Of a stretch of 64,000 bases of DNA, positions 17,604 through 31,655 are shown in pieces. Source of the stretch: Candidatus Zixiibacteriota bacterium (GTDB lineage: Bacteria > Zixibacteria > MSB-5A5 > GN15 > FEB-12). The DNA is taken from the NCBI GenBank assembly GCA_029860345.1, contig JAOUBJ010000004.1, positions 305,679-369,678 of the forward strand, given 5' to 3'. The notes beneath the pieces were generated by a model. It was not told where the DNA came from, ran no database searches, and worked only from the letters and a program-made list of their open reading frames with translations. Within the stretch, counting starts at the first letter, position 1. Every line of letters begins with the position of its first letter. The position numbers and the translations under genes were made by a program.

Positions 17604-19421
17604 ATGACTACCGATACCAAAACCAAGCCCAAGAAACTGCTCCAGCGCGAAGATGTAAACGACGGCCTCAAATGGAACCTGGCTGACATCTACGCCACCG
17701 AAGAGGCGTGGGAAGCAGATTTTTCAAAGGCGCAAGAGATACAGAAAAAAGCCCAGGCTTTCGCCGGGAAACTGGCCGAGTCACCGGCCACACTGTACGC
17801 CTGCCTGAAAACGCGCAGCGACCTGGGGCTGATCTGTTCAAGCCTCTATCAGTATGCGCATCTCAATCGCGATCTGGACAACCGCCAATCCAAATATCAG
17901 GCCATGAGCGACCGGGCGGCTATTCTGAACTCTGAAGCCTCGGCTGCTTTTTCGTTTATCGAACCGGAACTGCTTCAGATCGACGAAACCAAACTGCTTG
18001 AAATGATCGAGCAACTAGATAAACCCGATGAGTACGACTTCTACATCAAAGAGCTGATCCGTAGCCGCAAGCATGTGCGCTCCGAAGAGGTCGAAGAGCT
18101 TCTGGCCCAGTCAACGGTTATGGCCCGCAGTTCCGAGTCGATCTTCACCATGCTCAACGACGCCGATCTCAAGTATCCGACCGTCAATGACGAAGACGGC
18201 AACGAAGTCATGCTTACCAAGCAGCGTTTCGCCAAGCTCATGGAGTCATCCAACCGTCGCGTTCGTCAAGAGGCGCATGCTGCCTTCTACTCGGTTTACA
18301 GCGATCACTTGAACACAACCGGCGCCGCCTTGGCCGGTGCTGTTAATCGTGATGTCTTTTACAGCCGCGCCCGCCGGTACGACAACTGTCTTGAGGCGGC
18401 CCTTGATGGTGACAATATTCCCGCCCGTGTGTATGAATCCCTGATTGAAACGACCGAGGCACATCTGGATGGGTTGCATCACTATGTATCCCTGCGCAAA
18501 CGACTGTTGAAACTGGATGAAATCAGGACCTTCGACCTGGTCTGCCCGCTCTTCCCCGAACGTGATTACGAAGTACCATACGAGCAGGCCGTAGAGCAAA
18601 CGATCCAGGCGTTGGAGCCGCTGGGACCTGCGTATGCGGAGATGCTGCAACACGGTTTTGGCTCACGCTGGGTCGATGTGCGCGAGACCGAAGGAAAAGG
18701 GAGCGGCGCCTACAGTTGGGGTAACTACAGTTGCCATCCCTTTGTCTTGATGAACTACAACGACACTGTCGACAACATGTTCACCCTGGCGCACGAGATG
18801 GGCCACGCCCTGCACAGCTACTACTCCAATCAAAAACAGCCGTATCCAAAGTCGCAATACTCGATTTTCGTGGCCGAGGTAGCATCTACTCTGAACGAAG
18901 GTCTCCTGGTGCAGCATCTTTTGTCCAAAGCGACCGATAAGCTCGATAAGTTGTACATTCTCAACCGCCACGTCGACAACACGCTGGGGACATTTTTCAA
19001 CCAGGTGATGTATGCGCACTTCGAACTGGAGATCCATCGGCGGGTAGAAAAGGGTGAGGCCTTGTCACCTGACTCAGTGAACGACTTATGGACCGAGTTG
19101 ACGAAAAAGTACTTTGGACCCAATCTGTCGTTTGACGAACTGAGCGGTCTCAAGTGGAGCCGTGTGCCGCACTTCTATTTGAATTTCTACGTCTTTCAAT
19201 ATGCGACCTCGTATGCAGCCTCGCAGGCTATCCTGGATAAGTTCCTCGCCGGCGAAGAAGGATTGATCGAGAGATACCTCAAGTTGATCTCTTCCGGTGG
19301 TAACGATCATCCGATCGAACAACTCAAACTATGTGGTGTCGATATGACGACACCGGCCCCGGTCGAGGCGACACTTAAACTGTTCGCCGACCAGATTGAC
19401 GAGATGGACCGCTTGACGTAA
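17604..19421 (+). CDS. pepF: Oligoendopeptidase F (M3B metallopeptidase)
   Basis: 605 residues from the ATG at 17604, preceded by AGGAAAGG; a TTG one codon upstream is less likely. The zinc site HEMGH at about 397-401 lies in FTLAHEMGHALHSYYSNQKQ, with the downstream Glu in FVAEVASTLNEGLL completing the M3 gluzincin-like triad. N-terminal helices and the loop YSWGNYSCHPFVLMNYN before the active site are typical of PepF. A cytosolic enzyme that trims peptides of roughly 7-17 residues in the best-studied members. It stands alone, downstream of the acetyltransferase by 90 bp. Confidence 0.93.
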   Translation: MTTDTKTKPKKLLQREDVNDGLKWNLADIYATEEAWEADFSKAQEIQKKAQAFAGKLAESPATLYACLKTRSDLGLICSSLYQYAHLNRDLDNRQSKYQAMSDRAAILNSEASAAFSFIEPELLQIDETKLLEMIEQLDKPDEYDFYIKELIRSRKHVRSEEVEELLAQSTVMARSSESIFTMLNDADLKYPTVNDEDGNEVMLTKQRFAKLMESSNRRVRQEAHAAFYSVYSDHLNTTGAALAGAVNRDVFYSRARRYDNCLEAALDGDNIPARVYESLIETTEAHLDGLHHYVSLRKRLLKLDEIRTFDLVCPLFPERDYEVPYEQAVEQTIQALEPLGPAYAEMLQHGFGSRWVDVRETEGKGSGAYSWGNYSCHPFVLMNYNDTVDNMFTLAHEMGHALHSYYSNQKQPYPKSQYSIFVAEVASTLNEGLLVQHLLSKATDKLDKLYILNRHVDNTLGTFFNQVMYAHFELEIHRRVEKGEALSPDSVNDLWTELTKKYFGPNLSFDELSGLKWSRVPHFYLNFYVFQYATSYAASQAILDKFLAGEEGLIERYLKLISSGGNDHPIEQLKLCGVDMTTPAPVEATLKLFADQIDEMDRLT

Positions 19422-19483
19422 TAAGCCCACACACAAACTGCGTCAGCCCGGCGAAAGAGCCTGTTGACAAACCCACACTTGTC

Positions 19484-19581
19484 GTCATTGCGAGGCACGT
19501 CTTGCGTGCCGCGGCAATCTCACTTCGCTATGTTACAAGTAGTATGAGATTGCCGCGCTCCCTTCGGTCGTTCGCAATGAC
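19484..19581. repeat. Nested palindromic intergenic element
   Basis: Outer arms GTCATTGCGA (19484-19493) and TCGCAATGAC (19572-19581) are reverse complements. Inner arms GCGGCAATCTCA (19511-19522) and TGAGATTGCCGC (19545-19556) also are, and a small hairpin GGCACG/CGTGCC lies between 19494 and 19510. Another hairpin, CCCCGGC/GCCGGGG, follows at about 19604-19621. Structure suggests a REP-like or miniature inverted-repeat element. The rest of the 360 bp gap to 19783 shows no gene. Confidence 0.7.
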
Positions 19582-19782
19582 TGGGATTTGGACTGATTCA
19601 ACACCCCGGCGAAGGCCGGGGTCCAACCCCCATCCCAATCCACTGGAGGAATCGGCGGTGAATCCGCATTTGCTCAGAACTGAGGCAAAGGGATGGTCGA
19701 TACGCCTGCGGCTCCGATTCGGAGGTCAAGACCAACCAAACTCTTGTTCAACCCGGGGGAAGGTTTTGCCGATATATTCGGT

Positions 19783-20940
19783 ATGAGCATCGAAACAAAG
19801 AAGCTATTAAAGAACATCCTCGCGACCCTGTACGGAATAGTGGCTCTACTGCTCCTTATCGCGACGGCCTGGGTGCTGTTTACAGGCGGCGAAATCAAGG
19901 TGGTCCCGGCGGTTCCCGTGTTCTTCTCTGGTTTGTTGGCATACCTTGGGCTTTTCACAGCAAGCCTTGCCTACGGTCTCTGGAAATCGAAGAAGTGGGG
20001 CTACCGGCTGCACACCAACACGATGATTTTCCTGATTCCTCTCCTTTGTCTTTCCAGTATCAAATTCGGTTTGATGCTTTGGCGACTAAAAGACCTCTTG
20101 CTCCTTTCGCTGCTTCTACTTGTCACCGCTTTGGCCATCGCTGCCCAGTGGTTTCTGCGTCGCAATCGCGACGGTGTCTTGTTCCCGACCGGTTCAGTAT
20201 CAAAAAGGGCGGCGGGAGCGGTTCGAGGGGCTCTGATAGTCCCGGTAGTACTCCTACTTCCAATTCTGACCTTATCTTTGTTTAACACCGTCGAAATCCT
20301 CATTGGCCGCGATAGAGAGATGTTCGATAGCATTGAGAATGATCGGTTCCTGGTTGCTTCTTACCGGTACAGTCCAAGCTCATTCCCGGAGGAACCGCAT
20401 ACAGTGGTAGTGGTTGACAAGCGGACCATTCTCAGGGCGGAGAAACCTCTGTACCGACCAATCTTGGTGGCTGATTACCGGCTGAGCTGGTACGACTCAA
20501 CGACCTTCATATTCGGTCCACCTGGAAAGCACCGCGCGCGAGTTATCAATCTGCTGAACCCCCCCGCCCCGTCCAGCTTTGCGTATTGGTCCAGCAAGTG
20601 TAAACACGATCACCAACCAGACGATCCGACTGTAGACACCACTCTGGCCGAGAACGAGCGATACGTCGTGACCACTCGTTCATCCCTTCCCGACTGTGCT
20701 GCAGGATGTGGCCCCAAGCGCTTGCTCTGCCGGGACAAGTTAGGTTCACCAGCGCAAGAGACGGTCCTTATTGAGGTCGCGGCGCTCGACTCTATTTCGG
20801 TGACATTTGCAGATTCCGCTGAATTGTCGGTGTTCGTTCGATTCAAAGATGGCCGCCGCCATTTGACCGAAGAGATAGGCTCGATCATCCACCACGACAT
20901 CGATCTAAGCAGCCCACCCGCTGTGGCCGTTCAATACTAG
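19783..20940 (+). CDS. Membrane protein of unknown function
   Basis: 385 residues from the ATG at 19783; an upstream ATG at 19693 in the same frame would place 30 charged residues before the first membrane helix and is less likely. Four or five hydrophobic segments lie in the first 180 residues (KNILATLYGIVALLLLIATA, then VPVFFSGLLAYLGLFTASLA and others). A soluble region of about 200 residues follows, rich in beta strands with four Cys (CKHDH, CAAGCGPKRLLC). No domain is recognised. No neighbours in tight spacing. Confidence 0.6.
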   Translation: MSIETKKLLKNILATLYGIVALLLLIATAWVLFTGGEIKVVPAVPVFFSGLLAYLGLFTASLAYGLWKSKKWGYRLHTNTMIFLIPLLCLSSIKFGLMLWRLKDLLLLSLLLLVTALAIAAQWFLRRNRDGVLFPTGSVSKRAAGAVRGALIVPVVLLLPILTLSLFNTVEILIGRDREMFDSIENDRFLVASYRYSPSSFPEEPHTVVVVDKRTILRAEKPLYRPILVADYRLSWYDSTTFIFGPPGKHRARVINLLNPPAPSSFAYWSSKCKHDHQPDDPTVDTTLAENERYVVTTRSSLPDCAAGCGPKRLLCRDKLGSPAQETVLIEVAALDSISVTFADSAELSVFVRFKDGRRHLTEEIGSIIHHDIDLSSPPAVAVQY

Positions 20941-25488: not shown

Positions 25489-28400
25489 ATGACAATGAAG
25501 TTCGACCCGCTAAAAGACGATTTTACCATCCCCTCAGCCGAGGAGAAAATCCTCGAGTTCTGGACCGAGCAGGACGTCTTTCACAAATGTAACGAAGCCG
25601 CCAAAGACAGGCCGCATTTCGTCTTCTACGAAGGACCGCCCACGGCCAACGGCAAGCCGGGCATTCATCATGTCATTTCCCGCACTATCAAGGACCTGAT
25701 CTGTCGCTACAAAGCGATGAACGGCTATCGCGTCGACCGTAAAGGAGGCTGGGACACACACGGGCTGCCGGTTGAGATCGAAGTTGAGAAGCAGCTCAAA
25801 CTGGAATCCAAAGCGCAGGTTATCGAGTACGGTGTAGCCCAGTTCAACGCCAAGTGCAAAGAGTCGGTATTCAAGTATCTCGACCTGTGGGACAAACTCA
25901 CTCGTCGCATCGGCTACTGGCTCGATCTCGATGACGCTTACGTAACGCTCAAAAACGAGTATATCGAAACGGTCTGGTGGATTCTCAAGAATTTCTTTGA
26001 CCGTGATCTGATCTACCAGGGTTACAAGACGCTACCCTTCTGCCCACGTTGCGAAACCGGTCTCTCCAGCCACGAGGTCGCTCAGGGATATGAGATGGTC
26101 AAGGACCCGTCGATCTTTGTCAAGGTCAAAGCGGCTGACTCAGATTTCAGCTACTTGATCTGGACCACCACTCCCTGGACCTTGCCATCCAACGCCGCCC
26201 TCTGTATGCATCCCGAAGCCGACTATGTTATGGTTGAGCACGAAGAGGAAAAACTGGTCTTAGCCGAAGCGCTGGTGAACAAAGTTTTCGGTGAGGACAA
26301 AGAGATTCTCGAAAGCTTCAAGGGCACCGACTTTCTGAAACGAAAGTACGAGCCGTTGTTCGATACTTTCAAAGATCAAACCGACAAGGCTTTCTATGTC
26401 ATCAATGCCGAGTTCGTTACACTCGACGACGGTACCGGCATCGTTCACATCGCTCCCGGATTCGGCGCCGATGACTATGAAATCGGCAAGGAATTCGGTC
26501 TGCCGGTACTTCAGGCCAATTCGGCTAACGGTATCTTCAAGGAGCTTAGCGGCAAGTACTCAGGCATGTTTGTCAAGGACGCCGATCCGATCATCATCAA
26601 AGACCTCAAGGTGGCCGGACGGATGTTCAAAAAAGAACAATACGAACACAACTACCCATTCTGTTGGCGTTGTCATTCACCCTTGATCTACATAGCGCGG
26701 CAGTCCTGGTATCTCAAGACGACCCAGTTCAAAGAGCAACTGATCAAGAACAACAATATCGCCAACTGGTATCCCGATGAGATCCGCTCCGGGCGGATGC
26801 TTGACTGGCTGGAGAACAACGTCGACTGGGCGCTCTCACGTGAACGGTTCTGGGGGACACCTATCCCGATCTGGGTCTGCGATGACGACAAGTGCGGCAA
26901 GACGCGCGCCGTCGGCTCAATCGAACAGTTGCACAAGGAAGCTACCAACATACCCGCTGATATTGAACTGCACAAGCCGATGATGGACGCTGTCAAACTA
27001 ACCTGCGAGTGCGGCACAGAGATGACGCGCATCCCGGAGGTGCTGGATTGCTGGTTTGATGCCGGCTCGATGCCCTATGCTCAGTGGCACTACCCGTTTG
27101 AAAACGAACAGGAATTCAAGACCAAGTACCCGGCCGATTTTATCAGTGAAGCGGTCGATCAGACTCGTGGATGGTTCTATTCGCTGCTGGCTATTTCGAC
27201 ATTGCTTTATGATCAACCGCCGTTCAAGAATAATGTGGTGATGGAATTTGTGGTCGACAAAAAGGGCAAGAAAATGTCCAAACATGTCGGCAACGTAATA
27301 GACCCCTTCGAAACAGTAGACAAATACGGCGCCGACCCGACCCGTTGGTATCTGCTGGCCAATTCGGCCATCGCGGTGCCGACAAAGTTCAACCTGGACT
27401 CGCTGGCCGAGGTGGTGCGAAAGTATTTCGACACTCTGAGAAACACTTACTCGTTCTTCGCCCTGTACGCCAATGTCGATAATCTGGTGGATCGCGCAAC
27501 CGAGGAAGGTCGGACAATTGAGGACTTCTTGGAAAGCCGGGCGGGCGATCCGGACCGCTTTGATCGATGGATTATCTCCCGATTCAACTCTCTTGCAAAA
27601 CATGTAGGCGCCCAGCTGGACAAGTACGAGATCACCAAGCCGGTGCGCCAGATTCAGCATTTCGTCATCGAAGAATTGTCCAACTGGTACGTCCGCAACA
27701 ACCGCCGCCGCTTCTGGGCCAAAGGTGATGACCCCTCCAAGATGCGCGCCTATCTGACGCTGTATCGAGTCTTGGTCGGCGTCTGTGAGCTTACCGCGCC
27801 GGTGACTCCGTTTGTCAGCGAACTTCTGTTCAAACAACTGATGGGCCAAACCAAGGAGGCGCCGCTGTCTGTTCACATGATGTCGTACCCCACCGCGGAC
27901 GAGTCGCTGATAGATACCGATCTTGAGAAAACGATGGGCTTGGTGGAAAAAGCTGTCTCGCTCGGCCGGGCAGCGCGCTCACGCAAGAACCTGAAGGTCC
28001 GCCAGCCGCTCTCGGAGCTGATAGTCGGTCTCCCGGAGAAAGTCAGATTTGACACTCTGGATGGTTTTGCCGACATTATCAGGGAGGAGCTCAACGTAAA
28101 GAAGATCGGCCCGGCTACCGATCTGGCCGACTATGTCATATACTCGGCCAAACTGAATTTCAAAACTGCCGGATCACGGCTCGGCGGCGATGCCAAGGCG
28201 GCAGCCGGCCTGGTTGCTCAGCTCGGGTCAGAAGAGGTGGTACAGGGTGAGAGATCGCAACAGTTTAAGATTGCTTTGGACGGCCGTGAGGTCGTACTTT
28301 CTACAGAAGAAGTTCTGGTGATCAGGCAGGAGCGCGAAGGCTTCGCCGTTGAATCGGACGGCGCTTTGAGTGTGGCGCTGGTTACAGAACTTGATGACGA

Positions 28401-28665
28401 TCTCGTTGATGAAGGATTTGCGCGCGAACTGGTTAACAAGATTCAGAACATGCGCAAGTCGAACGGTCTGGAGGTCACTGACCGGATTACAGTGGCGCTC
28501 AGATCGACCGAGCGCGTTAGCCAGGCAGTATCAAAACACGATGAGTTCATCATGGCCGAGACGCTGGCCGACGAACTGAAATTCTCATCGGGTGAGGAAA
28601 TTGACGACGCCCAGGAGTGGAACATAAACGGCGAAAAGACATCGATATCGGTCGTGAAAGTATAA
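25489..28665 (+). CDS. ileS: Isoleucine-tRNA ligase
   Basis: 1058 residues, the long form of IleRS. The class I signature is GIHH at 58-61 in PPTANGKPGIHHVISR, and KMSKH at about 594-598 completes the ATP site. The editing (CP1) domain is visible from about 185 to 400 with WTTTPWTLPSNAAL and the GTGIVHIAPGFGADDYEI loop. The C-terminal anticodon-binding region lacks the Cys4 zinc finger of short bacterial enzymes and ends in a segment like eukaryal-type IleRS2, which in some bacteria gives mupirocin resistance. GAGG sits three bases before the ATG at 25489 and nine before an ATG at 25495, so the start could be either. Upstream of the zinc-finger protein and lspA, likely one operon. Confidence 0.95.
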   Translation: MTMKFDPLKDDFTIPSAEEKILEFWTEQDVFHKCNEAAKDRPHFVFYEGPPTANGKPGIHHVISRTIKDLICRYKAMNGYRVDRKGGWDTHGLPVEIEVEKQLKLESKAQVIEYGVAQFNAKCKESVFKYLDLWDKLTRRIGYWLDLDDAYVTLKNEYIETVWWILKNFFDRDLIYQGYKTLPFCPRCETGLSSHEVAQGYEMVKDPSIFVKVKAADSDFSYLIWTTTPWTLPSNAALCMHPEADYVMVEHEEEKLVLAEALVNKVFGEDKEILESFKGTDFLKRKYEPLFDTFKDQTDKAFYVINAEFVTLDDGTGIVHIAPGFGADDYEIGKEFGLPVLQANSANGIFKELSGKYSGMFVKDADPIIIKDLKVAGRMFKKEQYEHNYPFCWRCHSPLIYIARQSWYLKTTQFKEQLIKNNNIANWYPDEIRSGRMLDWLENNVDWALSRERFWGTPIPIWVCDDDKCGKTRAVGSIEQLHKEATNIPADIELHKPMMDAVKLTCECGTEMTRIPEVLDCWFDAGSMPYAQWHYPFENEQEFKTKYPADFISEAVDQTRGWFYSLLAISTLLYDQPPFKNNVVMEFVVDKKGKKMSKHVGNVIDPFETVDKYGADPTRWYLLANSAIAVPTKFNLDSLAEVVRKYFDTLRNTYSFFALYANVDNLVDRATEEGRTIEDFLESRAGDPDRFDRWIISRFNSLAKHVGAQLDKYEITKPVRQIQHFVIEELSNWYVRNNRRRFWAKGDDPSKMRAYLTLYRVLVGVCELTAPVTPFVSELLFKQLMGQTKEAPLSVHMMSYPTADESLIDTDLEKTMGLVEKAVSLGRAARSRKNLKVRQPLSELIVGLPEKVRFDTLDGFADIIREELNVKKIGPATDLADYVIYSAKLNFKTAGSRLGGDAKAAAGLVAQLGSEEVVQGERSQQFKIALDGREVVLSTEEVLVIRQEREGFAVESDGALSVALVTELDDDLVDEGFARELVNKIQNMRKSNGLEVTDRITVALRSTERVSQAVSKHDEFIMAETLADELKFSSGEEIDDAQEWNINGEKTSISVVKV

Positions 28666-29650: not shown

Positions 29651-30217
29651 GTGAATCTGTCGGAGAGGATCATAGACATTGTCCACCGATGGCGATCGAG
29701 TTCGCCAAGGCGTCGCTGGCCGGTTTCGCTTGTCGTCATGCTCTGCTTCGTGGTTGGAAACATAGCTCTGGTCTGGTCTGCGTTGTGGATAGACCGCCGT
29801 CTCGGCATACGCGTAACCGGATTCGAAGAACTCAGATATGCCCTTGGCTGGCCCATCTGTGTTATGGGCTCCTTGCTGATGCTCTGGATCGTGTTCTTGT
29901 TCTTTCGACAAAGAGGCACACCGGTTCCATTGAATCCTCCAAAGAGTCTGATCACTTCAGGTCCGTATAGGGTCACAAGGAATCCAATGATATCCGGGTG
30001 GTTCATAGGTTCCTTCGGATTGGCGATTGTGCTTGGGTCGATTGTGCAGTTCTTCGTTGTAACGCCGCTTTTGATGCTCCCCTTTATTCTGTTCGTCATA
30101 AAAGTCGAAGAACCGGAATTGGAAAAACGGTTTGGGCAGGAGTATTTGAACTACAAGAATAGTGTGCCCCGGTTCTTTCCACGGCTGCGACCCCGCCGGA
30201 CTGAAAGCAGTTCGTGA
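29651..30217 (+). CDS. Isoprenylcysteine carboxyl methyltransferase-like membrane methyltransferase
   Basis: 188 residues, GTG start with GGAGG upstream. Three or four membrane helices are followed by the ICMT/PEMT-type SAM-binding C-terminus: SGPYRVTRNPMISGWF and VEEPELEKRFGQEYLNYKNSVPRFFP. In bacteria, members of this family methylate various lipids or small molecules and the substrates are mostly unknown. It lies 47 bp after lspA and may belong to that operon. It converges with the MerB-like gene, whose stop codon is 22 bp away. Confidence 0.8.
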   Translation: MNLSERIIDIVHRWRSSSPRRRWPVSLVVMLCFVVGNIALVWSALWIDRRLGIRVTGFEELRYALGWPICVMGSLLMLWIVFLFFRQRGTPVPLNPPKSLITSGPYRVTRNPMISGWFIGSFGLAIVLGSIVQFFVVTPLLMLPFILFVIKVEEPELEKRFGQEYLNYKNSVPRFFPRLRPRRTESSS

Positions 30218-30239: not shown

Positions 30240-30986
30240 CTACTCAAACGCGAACAAAGCAGACTGGAAAACACGGGTCGAGTAAGCAGCTTGCTCCAGT
30301 GTGTAGAACCTACCTTCAACAAGATCGGATGTTGCCCAGAACTCTCTTGCCTGTTCTTCTGACCAGAAGAAGACAGACTTGCGTCAGAAATTGTCGATGA
30401 TACTCGGATCACGCCAATTGGGCAAATCCAGCGGCGGCACAAAAACCATCGGCGCCGGTCCGCCTTCCAATATGTCGATGTTAAGATCACTGTCGATGGC
30501 CATGACGATCGATCGACCGGAAACAACGCATTCGGTCTTGACCCGTGTCGACAACTGTTCTTTTCTCAAACGCCCTTGCACGAAGGGCGTGGCTGTCGTG
30601 TCGACTGCTCAGGCGGCATTGGTTTGTTCACCGGACTCGAATGTGAAATGATGAGGCGTTGTTTCGCACGTCACGGGATATGCCCAGCTAACCTCCCCGT
30701 TGTCGTTTCTGAACAGGAACACAAGATGCTTCTCAAGGTCATCGAGTATTTCGTTCACGCGCGGCAGAGATATCTTCAATTCCCGGGCAATAAACTCAGG
30801 TGACAAGGGCCGCCCAACTCTTGGTATCTCCCGGACCGTAAAATTACGTACCCGATGATGGTCCTCGGACATGAACTCCAACAGGGTTGCAACAGCCGCC
30901 GGGGCCTGAGACAACTCCTGTTCCCATTCTCGTCGTGGCAGTTCCACAATCCGGCGTCCCTGCCCAACTAATATCTTCTCACTCAC
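30240..30986 (-). CDS. MerB-like (organomercurial lyase family) protein with two predicted selenocysteines
   Basis: A single frame of 248 codons from the GTG at 30986 (GGAGG seven bases upstream) to the TAG at 30242-30240, interrupted by two in-frame TGA codons at 30611-30609 (residue 126) and 30386-30384 (residue 201). The product matches the MerB fold: an N-terminal winged-helix part (RPLSPEFIARELKISLPRVN), then NAA-TGA-AVDTTATPFVQGR, where E. coli MerB has WCALDT, so the first TGA is at catalytic Cys96 and Asp129 matches Asp99. Cys153 (TECVVSG) matches Cys117. The second TGA, in IIDNF-TGA-RKSVFFWSEEQ, is at catalytic Cys159. Hairpins resembling bacterial SECIS elements follow both TGAs. 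Many other genes here stop at TGA, so general recoding is excluded. Substrate is not known; family members cleave C-Hg bonds. An ordinary annotator would split this gene into two fragments and lose the 3' end. Confidence 0.85.
30351..30376 (-). promoter_or_regulatory. SECIS-like hairpin after the second TGA of the MerB-like gene
   Basis: Read on the minus strand, CTG and TTCTTC pair with GAAGAA and CAG, leaving a TC bulge in the 5' arm and the loop TGGTCA. The loop starts 18 bases after the TGA. E. coli fdhF has a loop of AGGTCU at almost the same distance and a bulged U in its 5' arm, so the likeness is close. Confidence 0.8.
30570..30590 (-). promoter_or_regulatory. SECIS-like hairpin after the first TGA of the MerB-like gene
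   Basis: Read on the minus strand, ACGCCCTT pairs perfectly with AAGGGCGT around the 5-base loop CGTGC, 18 bases after the TGA. The loop has G in its second position, as in bacterial SECIS elements, and the distance from the TGA to that G (about 28) is inside the accepted 16-37 range. Outer arms GTCGACA and TGTCGAC flank it. Confidence 0.75.
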
Positions 30987-31178
30987 GACGGCACCTCCAT
31001 TGTGGTCGGTGTTTCTTCTGAGCACCAATAAATGCATTGTTGCGCTCTCACGCACCTGATATTCAAAAAGCCGCCAAGGTAGACCCCGGCATTTCCCGGG
31101 AACCAAATAACCGAAAAAGTGATTGCGGAATGTATACAGAGTAAATAGGTTGACTTTATCAAACAAAAGGAGAACGGT

Positions 31179-31655
31179 ATGACCAAATCAGCGATCCTGT
31201 TCATTGGATTGGTCGCCCTGCTTTGCACCGCGGCGACGGCCGGGGACCTGCCCTGGTTCGACATGGAGAAGTGTACTTTCTGCAAACACATCACAGCCGA
31301 AAAAGGCTTGATGGAGCACATGAATTTCGAGTATCACAACCACTCCAAAGGTATCCTCTCGATCACCGTGGTCGACAAGGACTACCAGGAAGCCTTTGCT
31401 CGCGTCAGCAAGAAGATGACCGAGACGGGCGAAAAAATGATGGCCTCCAAAGAGCCGCCGCCGTACATGTGTGGTCACTGCGCGGGCTATGGCGAGTTTA
31501 TAATGGCCGGCGTCATGCCGGAAGTGGTCTCCACCGATGGCGGTGAGATAACGCTTTGGATGTCCGACAAACCTGAGATGGTGACCAAGCTGCACGCCTT
31601 CGCCCAGCGGACAACCGATGAATACAAGAAAATGCACGCCGACATGGCCGAATAA
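31179..31655 (+). CDS. Small exported protein with two CxxC motifs
   Basis: 158 residues with AAAAGGAG before the ATG. A signal peptide ends at TAATAG (about residue 22). The mature protein contains CTFC near residue 32 and CGHC near 98, each flanked by His or aromatic residues (EKCTFCKHI and YMCGHCAGYGEF). Two CxxC pairs suggest a soft-metal site or a redox-active disulfide pair. I do not recognise a named family. It is divergent from the MerB-like selenoprotein gene with about 190 bp between the starts, so shared regulation and a role in metal handling are plausible but unproven. A strong terminator follows. Confidence 0.75.
   Translation: MTKSAILFIGLVALLCTAATAGDLPWFDMEKCTFCKHITAEKGLMEHMNFEYHNHSKGILSITVVDKDYQEAFARVSKKMTETGEKMMASKEPPPYMCGHCAGYGEFIMAGVMPEVVSTDGGEITLWMSDKPEMVTKLHAFAQRTTDEYKKMHADMAE

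Follow-up and report, generated by a model that had tools for sequence, protein, structure and literature searches.

A MerB-family gene from Candidatus Zixiibacteriota with in-frame UGA codons at both catalytic cysteine positions: a predicted double-selenocysteine protein

A 64,000-nucleotide stretch of DNA from Candidatus Zixiibacteriota bacterium (assembly GCA_029860345.1, contig JAOUBJ010000004.1, positions 305,679 to 369,678; hereafter designated the window) carries on its minus strand, at 30240..30986, a gene of the organomercurial lyase (MerB) family, in which UGA occupies the positions of both catalytic Cys codons. We consider it highly probable that the two UGA codons are translated as selenocysteine (Sec) through SelA, SelB, SelD, tRNA-Sec, and a hairpin following each codon, and likely that the product acts as a lyase of organomercurials or of compounds with a similar carbon–metal bond.

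UGA codons at the catalytic columns of MerB

When TGA is taken as a residue, the frame is open from a GTG start to a TAG stop over 248 codons, and TGA occurs solely at codons 126 (30609..30611) and 201 (30384..30386), as the original prediction had stated. A family profile aligned to E. coli MerB (PDB 1s6l; residue numbering for the columns follows MerB) places codon 126 on the column of Cys96 and codon 201 on that of Cys159, matching exactly the by-eye alignment made earlier, and likewise assigns Asp129 (30600..30602) to the catalytic Asp99 and Cys153 (30528..30530), which is invariant in the 32 rows of alignment A5, to the structural Cys117. Thus, Asp99 and Cys117 of the MerB signature are retained as ordinary residues, and the window gene has equivalents of Cys96 and Cys159 only if Sec is inserted at UGA. 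The probability that two randomly placed stops in a frame of 248 codons hit both catalytic columns is ~3e-5, and TGA stands at both columns in all 26 distinct readable sequences described below; chance nonsense mutation is implausible, as had been argued from the window alone. A predicted ribosome-binding motif, GGAGGT (30993..30998, minus strand), lies 6 bases 5' of the GTG.

Scanning of genome contigs yielded 14 loci, of which ten (L016–L025) are clean at full length and carry TGA at both columns (10/10). L026 and L027 are frame-shifted, and L028 and L029 match the C-terminal part only; the second TGA is retained in all four, and the first also in L027. Whole-genome profile searches were made in three phyla. 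Relatives were found in 5 of 132 genomes of the own phylum, namely G000 and G111 (the genome of L016) with two TGA codons, G065 with the damaged piece L028, G103 with none, and G017 with one; in 15 of 395 genomes of the phylum of G139, the Desulfobacterales metagenome-assembled genome (MAG) of L023, with exactly two TGA codons in 15/15; and in 4 of 400 genomes of the phylum of G135, the Anaerolineae MAG of L019, with two in 4/4. Altogether 35 stretches were searched, 32 of which have both TGA codons; removal of five repeats left 27 distinct sequences, and that of L027 left 26, the window included. These 26 come from Zixibacteria, Chloroflexota, and deltaproteobacterial lineages, with pairwise identities of 32–95% (median, 48%), and the presence of TGA at both columns in every one of them argues that the window gene is not decayed. 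They show no additional in-frame TGA until about the C-terminal end, where a third one in L041, L044, L047, and L048 looks like an ordinary stop. The other stops or frameshifts named by the original prediction as contrary evidence are absent from the 26 clean sequences; outside these, three further copies (L026, L027, and L028) show frameshifts or damage.

The homologues, expected to show U or C at the two columns, indeed have TGA and more rarely Cys, and also Ser or Arg. By eye, the relative in G103 (L035) has Cys at both columns, and that in G017 (L037, reverse strand) has Cys and then TGA, the latter followed by the UUCUUCCGGUCGGAAGAA hairpin, the same as in the double-TGA genes. L037 is a more distant MerB-like gene from the same taxonomic family as the window genome and appears to represent a single-Sec MerB-like line of its own. 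In a 42-row tree with unsettled deep forks and long branches for L035 and L037, the Ser/Cys/Arg forms are nested in the double-UGA group and, by that placement, look like later losses.

Among the protein databases, 156 distinct proteins were examined (58 from one search and the best 120 of 1102 from another), including the front piece of the window gene itself (P0084). As many as 122 of them stop exactly one residue short of the first UGA column, in line with the earlier expectation that standard gene callers split such a gene and indicating that the double-UGA MerB-like family is largely hidden. Many hypothetical proteins of 125 residues are such front pieces of the predicted selenoprotein. 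Trp stands at both columns in 25 of the 156; the others show Cys followed by an end at the second column (2), Arg followed by an end (1), Ser/Cys (2), Ser/Ser (1), Ser/Arg (1), Glu/Leu (1), or Trp with an end before the second column (1). Cys at a UGA column was seen in P0017, P0068, P0012, and P0022.

The prevalence of the first piece among the database proteins would also be expected if the UGA codons were genuine stops, the product being a 125-residue winged-helix-like N-terminal piece, or if the gene were decaying; consistently, winged-helix DNA-binding domains are what the N-terminal part taken by itself resembles, and frameshifts or damage are seen in L026, L027, and L028. Genuine stops or decay are nevertheless highly improbable, as the gene is under purifying selection downstream of both UGA codons: the ratio of nonsynonymous to synonymous substitution rates (dN/dS) against L016 (82% identical) was 0.10 for the part preceding the first UGA, 0.18 for that between the two, and 0.04 for that following the second. 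Moreover, UGA at the two columns and the two hairpins are exactly conserved across phyla, and 26 sequences are open across both codons. A pseudogene or premature stop was set aside on the dN/dS values after the UGA codons and the conservation in the 26 sequences.

Decoding of the two UGA codons

The genome of the window (4.76 Mb, 99.3% complete) encodes tRNA-Sec, SelB, SelA adjoining SelB, and SelD, all over cut-off, so that the search proposed for selA, selB, selC, and selD found the machinery complete. The SelD gene (L032, contig C24) has an in-frame TGA of its own in the motif CAGUASK, which we take to be that of known Sec-containing SelD proteins. SelB over cut-off was likewise found in 10/10 genomes of L016–L025 and in 14/15 other carriers, or in 25/26 with the own genome.

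At a fixed distance after each UGA, the sense codons contain a hairpin with a G in its loop. Hairpin 1 (30572..30588, minus strand), the likely Sec insertion sequence (SECIS) of codon 126, has the stem GCCCUU/AAGGGC and the loop CGUGC, which starts 27 nt after the UGA; hairpin 2 (30354..30371, minus strand), that of codon 201, has the stem UUCUUCU/AGAAGAA and the loop GGUC, which starts 20 nt after the UGA and resembles the loop of E. coli fdhF. Bacterial SECIS elements obey rules on the distance from UGA and on the loop, by which both hairpins were judged. Codon choice in the hairpins is strongly constrained. Thus, across the 26 sequences, the ten degenerate hairpin columns showed a mean frequency of the main codon of 0.95, with eight of them at ≥0.9, in contrast to a mean of 0.53, with none at 0.9, for 78 other conserved degenerate columns (p 1.8e-7, for hairpin columns picked after the alignment was seen).

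Pairing was retained in 162/162 cells of hairpin 1 and in 185/189 cells of hairpin 2 in 27 sequences, the closing pair of the latter being U-A in 20, C-G in 6, and broken in 1. None of 500 shuffles reached the count of double-change cells or the covariation score of hairpin 2, although its count of pairs with a double change, which is one, was reached by 433/500. The compensatory change from U-A to C-G entails a Trp to Arg replacement in the protein and a silent change in a Ser codon, and selection on the protein alone would not couple the two.

Several observations weigh against this decoding. The carrier genome G257 has no SelB match at E 1e-60. In hairpin 1, the single double change occurs in L027 only and was matched by 21/500 shuffles; L027 is itself weak evidence, its gene being frame-shifted and its genome, G143, having no SelB over cut-off, so that this short contig may be misbinned or the gene dying. 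One or two pairs of hairpin 2 are broken in each of L027, L044, and L052, and L028 is a damaged-looking copy with further stops. The hairpin energies in the window gene are unexceptional, both ranking 9/40 along the gene with z-scores of −2.2 (48-nt stretch, hairpin 1) and −1.35 (hairpin 2), and the rank is unremarkable in most other rows, with site 1 of L023 (1/41) and of L020 (2/40) as exceptions. An Rfam scan gave no SECIS match to either hairpin, its sole match being a sub-threshold unrelated small RNA. The proposed SECIS check was borne out in that a selected hairpin follows each TGA, although neither hairpin is recognized as a SECIS by any Rfam model. From their pairing and codon conservation, hairpins 1 and 2 are likely the SECIS elements of codons 126 and 201.

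A reading of UGA as Trp, or by a readthrough inserting another residue than Sec, would agree with the 25 of 156 database proteins that have Trp at both columns. Those entries, however, sit on short contigs of 876–2397 bp, which fits gene calling with code 4, and TGA was found in 19/19 genome DNA matches from the two phylum searches (15 + 4). UGA also serves as a stop in the own genome, since TGA ends three of nine nearby long open reading frames (ORFs), including one with Pfam support (29651-30217). With the full Sec machinery present and both columns being those of the catalytic Cys of MerB, such a reading is extremely improbable, and UGA as Trp was set aside on the nearby TGA stops and the composition of the database entries. 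Collectively, these sequence comparisons strongly support the predicted decoding of both UGA codons of the window gene as Sec.

Family membership, fold, and proposed mechanism

The read-through protein matches the Pfam family PF03243 (MerB) with 45.2 bits against a gathering cut-off of 27. Its score was 41.4 bits with the MerB equivalog NF009710 and 38.5 bits with SaoL (NF040728), below the curated cut-offs of 193 and 140, respectively, and no NCBIfam match (E 0.01) to other double-Sec bacterial protein families was found. The structure predicted with Cys modelled for Sec has a predicted local distance difference test score (pLDDT) of 93, and its best matches are solved MerB structures, to the chains of which the sequence is 15–22% identical. 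A profile search of PDB likewise found MerB, and a single-sequence PDB search of P0001 gave no match.

In comparison with MerB of plasmid R831b (PDB 1s6l, 3f0o), which has Cys96 and Cys159 where the window gene has UGA, the window protein is ~20% identical, and has ~20 extra N-terminal residues, and none of the scanned neighbours of its gene is a mer gene. MerB2 (PDB 5c17) has Cys at the catalytic columns and Ser at that of Asp99, whereas the window protein has predicted Sec and Asp. The source species of 5c17 is given as Bacillus megaterium in PMC8261052 (this paper, PMC9312934, PMC9948709, and PMC13188914 are cited from the parts consulted).

The SaoL profile matches all 32 rows of alignment A5 with E up to 0.01, and SaoL is a MerB-like selenoprotein, as predicted for the window protein; membership in SaoL was set aside at 38.5 bits against a cut-off of 140. 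SaoL contains one Sec in a CU motif and is named an organometallic lyase in a review (PMC13188914), whereas the window protein has two predicted Sec residues at separate catalytic columns. The alkylmercury lyase MerB-like selenoprotein WP_238493467.1 (PMC9312934) has an accession identical to that of SaoL in the review, which also describes MbdU and other bacterial proteins with two Sec residues each, some linked to metals, from families different from that of the window protein. No double-Sec MerB was found in the literature searched, where two papers by Haft were covered only via the consulted parts of PMC13188914, and PMC2398784, PMC5029168, and PMC12013277 gave no text match for MerB. The original prediction, which named no described double-Sec MerB, took the protein for a new selenoprotein family; since a Sec-containing MerB-like protein is already known in the single-Sec SaoL, the novelty lies in a distinct group with Sec at each of the two catalytic columns.

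MerB acts through two soft nucleophiles that hold R-Hg+, an Asp that protonates the carbon, and release of R-H. By analogy, with Sec inserted at both UGA126 and UGA201, Sec126 and Sec201 would jointly grip the R-Hg+ ion, and Asp129 would break the C-Hg bond by protonation and free R-H, leaving Hg(II) between the two selenolates, from which a thiol, sulfide, or partner would eventually remove it. Selenolates would grip Hg more tightly and, as nucleophiles, would be deprotonated already at neutral pH. They would presumably make release of the product harder, so that an acceptor would be needed, and 13 of 14 carrier genomes have no MerA over cut-off. A role as organomercurial lyase is likely for the double-UGA protein.

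Substrate, gene neighbourhood, and mercury genes in carriers

Methylmercury is a plausible substrate in the carriers, many of which have HgcA. HgcA over cut-off was found in 8 of 14 carrier genomes, the own genome included (the 14 comprise those of L026, L028, and L029, where the genes are not cleanly readable). In the 395-genome sample, HgcA matches were present in 10/15 carriers (9 over cut-off) against 106/380 others, with a one-sided p of 0.0026, uncorrected for the kinship of the genomes.

The double-Sec MerB-like protein may instead act on a substrate other than methylmercury, either another organometal or organometalloid, which overlaps with the similar carbon–metal bond allowed above, or have a role in metal binding or delivery. 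We regard this as rather unlikely, though it has several points in its favour, some of which count against an organomercurial lyase altogether: only 41 of the 193 bits are reached with the MerB equivalog, identity to solved MerB chains is as low as 15–22%, a Pfam scan of three window neighbours detected no mer gene, a profile search found MerA over cut-off in 1/14 carriers, the own genome not being that one, and the relative SaoL, whose profile matches A5 throughout, is called an organometallic lyase in the parts consulted of the review. Against it stand the retention of the four MerB signature columns with UGA for both catalytic Cys, the enrichment of HgcA among the carriers, and a MerR-family regulator adjoining the gene. 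This regulator lies directly downstream in L022, where it was checked with Pfam, with homologous ORFs and conserved synteny in L018 and L024. These three loci hold the only blocks, aside from the MerB gene, common to at least three loci, and a few ORFs are common to two.

The neighbours in the window are a convergent methyltransferase-like gene and a divergent gene (31179-31655, plus strand), whose Cys-rich product of 158 residues contains several Cys pairs (CTFCKH, CGHC) and has no Pfam match. The Pfam scan of three neighbours showed no ABC transporter, the genome not having been searched for Sao families. In L016 (2407-4921), an ABC ATPase, a NosL-domain protein, and an ABC-2 permease are encoded directly upstream of the double-TGA MerB gene. 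A 1058-residue ORF of the window (25489-28665) is homologous to one in L021 (2726-5992); both lie <1.6 kb from the MerB gene in differing orientation, which may be chance. On contig C27 of G145 (19421-20776 and 27084-28469), ~6 kb separate a MerA over cut-off (557 bits) from a MerA-like match that contains one in-frame TGA and may be a Sec-containing relative of mercuric reductase.

Strict conservation of Cys96, Asp99, and Cys159 has been described for MerB, and an extensive survey, whose MerB-only genomes lacked HgcAB, chose MerB by Cys96/Asp99/Cys117/Cys159 (PMC8261052); to judge from the parts consulted, it could hardly detect the double-UGA family. Three MAGs with both methylation and demethylation genes have been described, and Geobacter bemidjiensis is cited as doing both (PMC9948709), so that the co-occurrence of such genes in one genome is not new in itself. 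Tentatively, and with slightly less than even confidence, we propose that double-Sec organomercurial lyases, hidden by annotation, are widespread in selenium-using anaerobes, many of them HgcA methylators, where they degrade the methylmercury made by their hosts or neighbours and are missed by surveys demanding Cys96/Cys159.

If true, a family with both catalytic Cys changed to Sec would provide a natural test of the effect of selenium on Hg-C bond cleavage and a two-hairpin test case for selenoprotein finders, and many "hypothetical proteins" of 125 residues would be explained as selenoprotein front halves. The family may also constitute a hidden sink of methylmercury, in genomes many of which encode the methylmercury-making HgcA.
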